A stretch of DNA of 34,128 bases. Source: Janthinobacterium sp. GTDB lineage: Bacteria; Pseudomonadota; Gammaproteobacteria; Burkholderiales; Burkholderiaceae_D. The DNA lies in the NCBI GenBank assembly GCA_025356595.1, contig JANXSQ010000085.1, positions 1 through 34,128 of the forward strand. Direction: 5' to 3'. Under the pieces are notes generated by a model, which saw only the letters and a program-made list of their open reading frames with translations, searched no databases and was not told where the DNA came from. The translations under genes were made by a program, and so were the position numbers. Position 1 is the stretch's first letter, and each line of letters starts with the position of its first letter. Shown piece by piece: positions 24,601 through 25,815 of this stretch.

Positions 24601-25815
24601 GTGAACAAGACCATGGACGTGCAGGCCGCCGTCGCCATCGCGGCGGCGCAGGCCCTGGCGGCGCAGAGCCAGGGTAGTTTCGGCGTCGGCGGCGTGCTGC
24701 TCGACGGCGCCGGCAATGTGCTGCATGCGCTGCACAACAAGGTCGTCAGGAACGGCCTGATCTTCGACCCGACCGCGCACGGCGAACGCCAGTTGGTGGA
24801 CTGGTATTTCGCCGAAAGGGAGAAGGGCACGCCCCTGCCGCCGCCCGCCGACATCACCATCGTCACCTCGCTCGACCCCTGCTGCATGTGCGCCGGGGCG
24901 ATCCTGGCGGCCGGCTTCCACGCCGTCGTCGCCGCCGGCGACCTCAAGGCCGGCATCAACCACGACGGCGCCGCCACGTTCGCGGCCTTGCCGCCGTCGC
25001 TGCGCCGGCAGGCCGCCGCCAGCTTCAGCTATCCGGCCGTGCGCGGCGCCACCGGCTACGCGCGCGCCGCCTCGGGCGCCGCGCCGAAATCTTTCTTCAT
25101 CGGTAAAACCATCAACGAGGCGACCCAGGCCCTGTGCTCGCTGGTGTTCGACTCCACCTCCGCCGAGGTGCTGGCCCTGCTCAACGCCGATCCCGGCCAG
25201 CAGCAGTTGCGCGACCCGGCCGGCCTGCCGCCCGGCCACCCCATCGTCCGCGCGCTGAAGGAAAGCTACCCCGGCGCGCTGGCCTATCGTGGCGCGCCGC
25301 AGCGGCCCGGCGCCGCGCTGGCGCCTTTCCTGCTGGCGGCGATGGAGGCGGACCGCCGCGCCGGCGGCGCCGGCGAGGCCTGCGCCTTGCTCGACGGCTT
25401 CGGCAATCTGCTGCTGTGCGCGCCGGGCCAACGCGCCGCCTCGCCCATCCGCAGCGCCTTCATGGAATGCACGCGCCGCTACGCGCGGCTGCGCTACGAT
25501 CTGCTGTGCGGCGCCGACGCCGCGCTGCGCGAGGAGCTCGGGCAGTATCTGGCGCATCCGCGGGAGGGCACCTTCGTGTTCGCCGTCGGCCCGGACGACA
25601 GCGCGAGCGGTTTCATGGACCTGGGCGCGTATGGTTCGACCATGGAGGGGCCTTTGCCGGCGAACAATCCGGCGCAGTTCCAATACGTGCGCGCCGGGCA
25701 GGACGCGGCGGCGCTGCAAGCCCTGTGCGAGGCCCTGCCGCCGCTGTACCGCAACGTCATCAAGATCAGCCCGTCGCAGGTGCGCGACCAGGCGCTGATA
25801 GCCGCGCTGGCCTGA
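24601..25815 (+). CDS. two-domain CMP/dCMP-type deaminase with a degenerate second domain
   Basis: 404 residues with GTG start at 24601 (ATG at 24613 is an alternative; neither has a clear Shine-Dalgarno). Residues about 5-130 are a zinc deaminase: ligand H60 with E62 in THE-like AHGERQ, and C94/C97 in [10 protein letters not shown], the pattern of guanine, cytosine and tRNA-adenosine deaminases. The usual HAE is HGE here. Residues about 235-400 repeat the layout, with LLDGFGN (compare LLDGAGN in the first half), FMECTRRYA in place of AHGERQL, and VGPDDSASG in place of LDPCCMCAG. The metal-binding residues are therefore lost in the second half. The gene is last in the operon, 9 bases after cdd. 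Substrate is unknown; a nucleobase or nucleoside is likely. Confidence 0.8.

Follow-up and report, generated by a model that had tools for sequence, protein, structure and literature searches.

Tandem arrangements of an active and an inactive deaminase domain are already known. In the dimeric cytidine deaminase Cdd of E. coli and in ADAT2/ADAT3, two chains that act on tRNA, an inactive deaminase domain or subunit supports the active one, and inert deaminase halves are also found in APOBEC3 proteins. Yeast cytosine deaminase is a homodimer in which both subunits are active. Human CDADC1 likewise carries one active and one inactive deaminase domain per chain, the inactive one being architectural; unlike the protein described here, CDADC1 has its inactive domain first, this domain still binds zinc, and the enzyme is found in vertebrates and acts on dCTP and CTP (PMC12088426, like the other papers below cited from excerpts). 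The plant guanosine deaminase GSDA provides proof that the cytidine-deaminase-like fold can deaminate guanosine; it is a dimer with an interface formed by helices 2, 3, 4 and 6, and its pocket is capped by its own C-terminus, at Tyr185 (PMC9739398, excerpts). The bacterial protein described here has a C half for which neither Pfam nor NCBIfam has a model.

The window, that is, the whole stretch of DNA that was analyzed, comprises 34,128 nt of Janthinobacterium sp. (contig JANXSQ010000085.1 of assembly GCA_025356595.1) and contains the following features, in this order:

8028..12680, minus strand: BMP-type ABC importer (two permeases, ATPase, binding protein), ORFs named by sequence reading
15747..16652, minus strand: xapR-like LysR regulator (NF007439, 329.3 bits, cut-off 290)
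17025..17858, plus strand: xapA, purine nucleoside phosphorylase of the xanthosine phosphorylase type (TIGR01699, 409.6 bits, cut-off 370.9)
18171..19364, plus strand: deoB, phosphopentomutase (TIGR01696, 468.4 bits, cut-off 341.2)
19361..20317, plus strand: deoC, deoxyribose-phosphate aldolase (sequence reading and conserved gene order)
20330..22711, plus strand: two-half aldehyde dehydrogenase, 793 aa (aldehyde dehydrogenase models, each below its cut-off among the 25 matches listed)
22838..24160, plus strand: deoA, thymidine phosphorylase (TIGR02643, 719.9 bits, cut-off 570.7)
24181..24591, plus strand: cdd, ordinary cytidine deaminase (TIGR01354, 132.9 bits, cut-off 113.65, in a scan that began at 24154)
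24601..25815, plus strand: two-domain deaminase gene, 404 aa, GTG start with an alternative ATG at 24613
24601..25095, plus strand: N-terminal zinc deaminase domain, residues 1-165 (PF00383, E 2.7e-9 at residues 9-111, and PDB matches)
24778..24786, plus strand: zinc ligand H60 and catalytic E62 of the HGE motif (both in 41/41 members)
24877..24891, plus strand: zinc ligands C94 and C97 of P93-C-C-M-C97 (both in 41/41)
25180..25812, plus strand: C-terminal pseudo-deaminase domain as predicted by AlphaFold and Foldseek against the PDB, residues 194-404, without HxE or CxxC
25621..25647, plus strand: LGAYGSTME, residues 341-349 (41/41), mostly on helix 335-348 of the model

The initial annotation had described a deaminase with an internal duplicate that has lost its zinc site, and the ORF is present as reported, with a GTG start nine bases past the cdd stop codon and an ATG four codons further on. 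XapA of the window is 67% identical to E. coli XapA, and the XapR-like protein is 40% identical to XapR; the proteins from the annotated E. coli K-12 genome score 541.9 (XapA) and 531.4 (XapR) on the same NCBI models. The deoC product had no NCBIfam match at E <= 1e-40, and the binding protein and ATPase of the BMP-type importer matched models only below the cut-offs; this importer would probably take up nucleosides. The 793-aa aldehyde dehydrogenase is also two-halved: its halves are 33% identical over 178 columns (E 1e-17) and a GQxC catalytic motif occurs just once, in the first of them, an organization that we take to resemble ALDH16. One operon thus encodes two enzymes that each have an inert second half.

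The family was studied in an alignment of 41 members, namely the window protein and those of loci L002-L035, L037, L098, L100, L114, L115 and L116, many of which are close kin; L036 and L097 were excluded because of broken frames. The N half matches PF00383 with 37.3 bits (cut-off 25), and N46, H60, E62, C94 and C97, which would together form the working site of the enzyme, are invariant in all 41. Residue 61 is G in 38 members and S in three. The HGE motif had been considered unusual, a point that does not stand, as HGE is also found in yeast cytosine deaminase (PDB 1ysd, 1uaq), the closest relative of known structure. This enzyme of about 160 residues shares the zinc site and the fold of the two-domain deaminase and lacks a second domain; among the PDB matches listed, it ranks first both for the N half in the sequence search and for the C half in the fold search. 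Cytosine, guanine, tRNA-adenosine and guanosine deaminases are among the PDB entries matched by the N half, all about equally near, with guanosine deaminase the weakest of the four; the profile gave E-values of 5.2e-6 for yeast cytosine deaminase, 6e-6 for guanine deaminase 1tiy and 9.2e-5 for GSDA. The protein scores 26.1 bits on the NCBI TadA equivalog (cut-off 150), which places it outside TadA, and no cdd model was among its NCBIfam matches up to E 10. GSDA (PDB 7dbf) has the fold, the zinc site and the reaction proposed below in common with the two-domain deaminase; its N69 corresponds to N46 by motif alignment, whereas its HxE motif reads HAE (His80, Ala81, Glu82) instead of HGE (PMC9739398, excerpts). 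N46 fits the conserved Asn that anchors the base in guanosine deaminase, but since the excerpts of PMC9739398 describe this Asn as conserved in guanine deaminase too, it does not discriminate for guanosine deaminase.

For the C half, the initial annotation had claimed a deaminase fold without a zinc site, and here the structure prediction agrees with it. An AlphaFold model of the full protein, built with 26 family members, had a pTM of 0.87 and a mean pLDDT of 83.5, with residues 151-157 below 50, and the C half modeled alone (residues 194-404, 26 members) had a pTM of 0.85 and a pLDDT of 83.1. The N half is modeled as helix 7-23, strands 30-34 and 40-45, helix 61-75, strand 86-89, helix 95-104 and strand 107-110, and the C half as helix 238-253, strands 260-264 and 269-275, helix 286-302, strand 324-327, helix 335-348 and strand 360-362, so that the core elements follow one another in the same sequence in the two halves, the C half having an additional helix (307-316). 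The three motif pairs on which the annotation was built, LLDGAGN (33-39) and LLDGFGN (263-269), AHGERQ and FMECTR, and LDPCCMCAG and VGPDDSASG, are all present and lie on equivalent elements of the model. When the C half alone was searched against the PDB with Foldseek, the best 50 of 184 matches (E <= 10) were all deaminases of the cytidine-deaminase-like fold, including yeast cytosine deaminase, TadA, guanine and guanosine deaminases, ADAT2, Msd and plant cytidine deaminase. Among the matches listed, E ranged from 0.007 to 0.17, with none at or below 0.001, and the rmsd values of 5-11 mark the match as distant. The full model found the same families with E from 7e-6, a match that is not attributed to either half; its best matches were Msd deaminase and TadA proteins, with yeast cytosine deaminase lower. 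By prediction and fold search, the assignment of the C half to the deaminase fold holds, and the outcome that the initial annotation had named as its refutation, a C half predicted to fold otherwise, did not arise.

The zinc site is missing from the C half in all of the members compared. CxxC is absent from it in 41/41 members, HxE occurs only as HPE in an extra tail of L028, and no residue pair of the zinc-site pattern was found in this half in the 41 members; single residues of the Cys, His or Glu type do occur close to the aligned positions, for example E289 and C290 in 36/41, H331 in two and C334 in one. The C half of the window protein had no Pfam match, and when 11 members were scanned, the C halves of single members matched four unrelated Pfam models at E 0.05-0.13. 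In NCBIfam, one match was obtained at 14.7 bits against a cut-off of 320, and a PDB sequence search with a C-half profile of the 11 members returned six matches at E 0.7-1, none of them a deaminase. Stand-alone relatives of the C half were not seen in a class sample of 369 genomes or in a phylum sample of 398 genomes.

The claim that the C half is an internal duplicate of the N half fared differently in its two parts, as the common predicted fold was borne out and a common origin could not be read from the sequence. Alignment of the halves by hhalign gave a probability of 1.5%, and in a test with the 41 members the score of the real comparison was reached by 22 of 200 column shuffles; neither result is significant, and sequence proof of a duplication was rejected on these grounds. 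Both half-versus-half alignments, though not significant, match the register in which the motifs had been paired. As the halves do not resemble each other significantly in sequence, it is the predicted fold that carries the claim for the C half, and for the same reason the protein could equally well have arisen by fusion of two distinct domains of the deaminase fold. We infer from the predicted fold that the C half may be an internal duplicate.

The zinc-less half is kept by selection. Among the 41 members, 42 positions are invariant in residues 1-165, one in 166-193 and 29 in 194-404, and LGAYGSTME (L341-E349), the longest invariant run of the protein, is located in the C half, at the end of helix 335-348, the counterpart of the PCxxC helix in the AlphaFold model. 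In five close pairs, pN/pS was 0.07-0.27 for the C half and 0.02-0.27 for the N half, and between the window and 11 relatives it was 0.42-0.57 and 0.30-0.47, respectively; the C half changes faster than the N half yet stays under constraint. As the inert half holds the longest invariant stretch, the protein offers a clean case for studying the role of a pseudo-enzyme domain. We suggest that the C half probably stands in for a second subunit, and that the two halves would pack like the subunits of a dimeric relative such as GSDA. If the halves are packed in this way, the conserved C-half segment would be near the working pocket and could take over the capping that the C-terminal tail performs in GSDA. 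LGAYGSTME, which is on a helix whose counterpart packs at the dimer interface in homodimeric relatives, may close or shape the pocket of the N half.

The substrate is suggested by the gene neighborhood. In all 35 loci picked by closeness to the window protein (L002-L036, from Janthinobacterium, Massilia, Duganella and Pseudoduganella, with full-length copies and L036 in pieces), cdd lies directly 5′ of the deaminase gene and deoA before it, deoA being fragmented in L036; the same arrangement is found in L100. The position beside an ordinary cdd, from which a different substrate had been predicted, thus applies to the window and its close relatives, whereas distant copies share xapA instead. 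In L115 and L116, from two genomes of enterobacterial appearance, xapA, a gene for a TsgA-type transporter (tsgA-like), xapR and the deaminase gene follow each other on one strand, and no tblastn match to cdd, deoA, deoB or deoC of the window was found inside either 17-kb stretch. The neighbors exceed the NCBI XapA and XapR-family cut-offs in the window, L115 and L116, the latter two scoring 425.8 and 419.9 bits for xapA and 446.7 and 443.0 bits for xapR; since L115 and L116 are near-identical, they count as one line of evidence. In the Sinorhizobium locus L097, the deaminase gene is accompanied by pieces of a xapA-like gene, 52% identical to E. coli XapA over 108 residues, of deoB and of a gene for a BMP protein. 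XapA or XapR above the cut-offs was not found near the copies of G021, G1279 and L114. L114 has no nucleoside gene within 3 kb, and in G1279 xapA is on a different contig, with a LysR gene two genes on from the deaminase that scores 210.9 bits against the XapR cut-off of 290.

Because distant copies share xapA as a neighbor, a purine nucleoside is indicated as the substrate, which we consider fairly probable. As Cdd serves cytidine, Add adenosine, GuaD guanine and TadA tRNA, and as XapA accepts xanthosine, conversion of guanosine to xanthosine is our first guess; that the substrate is guanosine in particular is a tentative suggestion. XapA also cleaves inosine and guanosine (PMC3923242, excerpts), so the XapA partner singles out neither xanthosine nor guanosine, and adenosine and free bases are further candidate substrates.

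The co-occurrence of these genes was followed in 44 genomes chosen by hand, a non-random set of 24 carriers of the deaminase gene (20 from the family of the window, and G1402, G1416, G1279 and G021) and 20 non-carriers (18 of the 20 listed for the family of the window, G670 and G672 being left out for low completeness, and G007 and G269, the sole match in G269 being an N-half deaminase). XapA above the cut-off was found in 23/24 carriers, the exception being G021, against 2/20 non-carriers, G056 and G269. This association is confounded by descent, as the carriers come from few genera and both of these non-carriers are of the same genus as the carrier G826. Of the 20 carriers from the window's family, G775 has xapA and the deaminase gene on separate contigs; the other 19 have both on one contig, with a distance of about 4-8 kb between the two starts. 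GuaD exceeded its cut-off in 22/24 carriers against 11/20 non-carriers, and PF00962 was matched in 23/24 against 15/20. The genome of the window also encodes Add (PF00962), GuaD and TadA (208.6 bits) elsewhere, while the second other PF00383 gene of this genome (C137, L102) gave no match for the two reading frames scanned. A role as substitute for a missing Add or GuaD was unsupported, both usually being present in carriers.

These counts bear on two other substrates. The enzyme could convert adenosine or deoxyadenosine to (deoxy)inosine, by which the operon alone would take all four nucleosides to bases through Cdd, the two-domain deaminase, XapA and DeoA. The acceptance of inosine by XapA (PMC3923242, excerpts), the adjoining cdd in 35/35 loci, the presence of TadA, an adenosine deaminase of the same fold, among the nearest relatives, and the lack of a PF00962 match in the carrier G1279 would all agree with this, but a PF00962 adenosine deaminase is found in 23/24 chosen carriers and also in the genome of the window, and we think this reading unlikely. 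Alternatively, the enzyme could deaminate guanine or cytosine as free bases, or else a purine base or nucleoside that is unusual or damaged, for example isoguanosine, and act downstream of or beside XapA. The nearest solved relatives by profile, yeast cytosine deaminase and guanine deaminase 1tiy, the order of the full-model Foldseek matches given above, and the carrier G1416, which has no GuaD match, point in this direction; the amidohydrolase-type GuaD above its cut-off in 22/24 chosen carriers speaks against it, and we consider the idea possible but less likely than not.

We favor guanosine, and we propose that the two-domain deaminase is a zinc-dependent single-chain pseudo-dimer that hands its product to XapA, most likely by deaminating guanosine to xanthosine; we regard this reading as quite possible, if somewhat short of probable. 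The enzyme would act in nucleoside breakdown, with XapA converting the xanthosine to xanthine and ribose-1-phosphate, and the XapR-like regulator would respond to xanthosine as its inducer too, as has been described for XapR (PMC7205307, excerpts). A point against the proposal is that GuaD would already provide one route to xanthine, to which a guanosine deaminase would add another. The gene order yields a substrate that can be tested, and if xanthosine is indeed made, bacteria possess a guanosine deaminase and the pathway through xanthosine phosphorylase is supplied from within with both its substrate and its inducer. Guanosine deaminase activity was reportedly observed in a pseudomonad in old reports, which would weaken a description of the activity as plant-only. 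In excerpts of the recent literature, guanosine deaminase is termed plant-only (PMC8616923) or almost exclusively plant (PMC9739398). In the portions of the open-access literature that were available, we found neither a bacterial guanosine deaminase gene nor a two-domain bacterial family of active and zinc-less deaminase halves. The most extended version of our proposal, a bacterial guanosine deaminase built as a single-chain pseudo-dimer, in which LGAYGSTME of the zinc-less half completes the active site and which supplies XapA with xanthosine and so explains the source of xanthosine for xapAR systems, is taken as a whole rather more a speculation than an expectation.

Genes of allantoate and urate breakdown were observed near two of the copies. 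In G1279 (L098, 115-1913), some 6 kb separate the deaminase gene from genes for allantoate amidohydrolase and OHCU decarboxylase, and in L100 (16568-18001) an OHCU decarboxylase is fused to an allantoate amidohydrolase-like part about 7 kb past it. These neighbors hint at purine breakdown as a further pointer.

Two-domain deaminases of this kind are rare and have a patchy distribution. Within the window's family, 76/294 genomes are matched by a C-half profile (G868 and G893 only partially), and the gene is carried by 3/198 genomes of a family that looks like Enterobacteriaceae. In the order sample, 1/300 genomes besides the window's own has it (G021, 42%), the remaining matches being N-half deaminases; the C half was found in 1/369 genomes of the class sample, the window's own, and in 2/398 of the phylum sample, one of them again the window's own. 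Three Sinorhizobium plasmid records, including plasmid pC101a of Sinorhizobium sp. C101, share a match at 45% with a broken frame, and a viral collection contained one contig with a relative (L114, 49%). The N half weakly matches MafB19-like and Bd3614-like deaminase models, both below the cut-offs, as might be expected if the target were nucleic acid or protein-bound, or if the protein were a toxin or defense deaminase. The fixed place in a catabolic operon, the lack of a PADLOC match in three members and the absence of C-half matches from the phage collection make this very improbable, and a defense or phage gene was rejected on the PADLOC and phage results, with L114 as the one contig from the viral collection.

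Three of the loci deserve a separate description. The relative in L114 (2992-4203) is full-length, with 403 aa, and lies directly 5′ of an apparent transposase piece at 4450-5013, identified by sequence reading; the gene may be carried by a mobile element, or a piece of host DNA may have been classed as viral. In L036, from the complete genome of Massilia sp. H-1, deoB, the aldehyde dehydrogenase gene, deoA and the deaminase gene are all fragmented, and these breaks are so numerous that sequencing error is likelier than decay. In L097 (6600-11150, on pC101a), the deaminase gene, the xapA-like gene, deoB and the BMP protein gene are broken or partial and lie side by side, apparently as a decaying nucleoside cluster.
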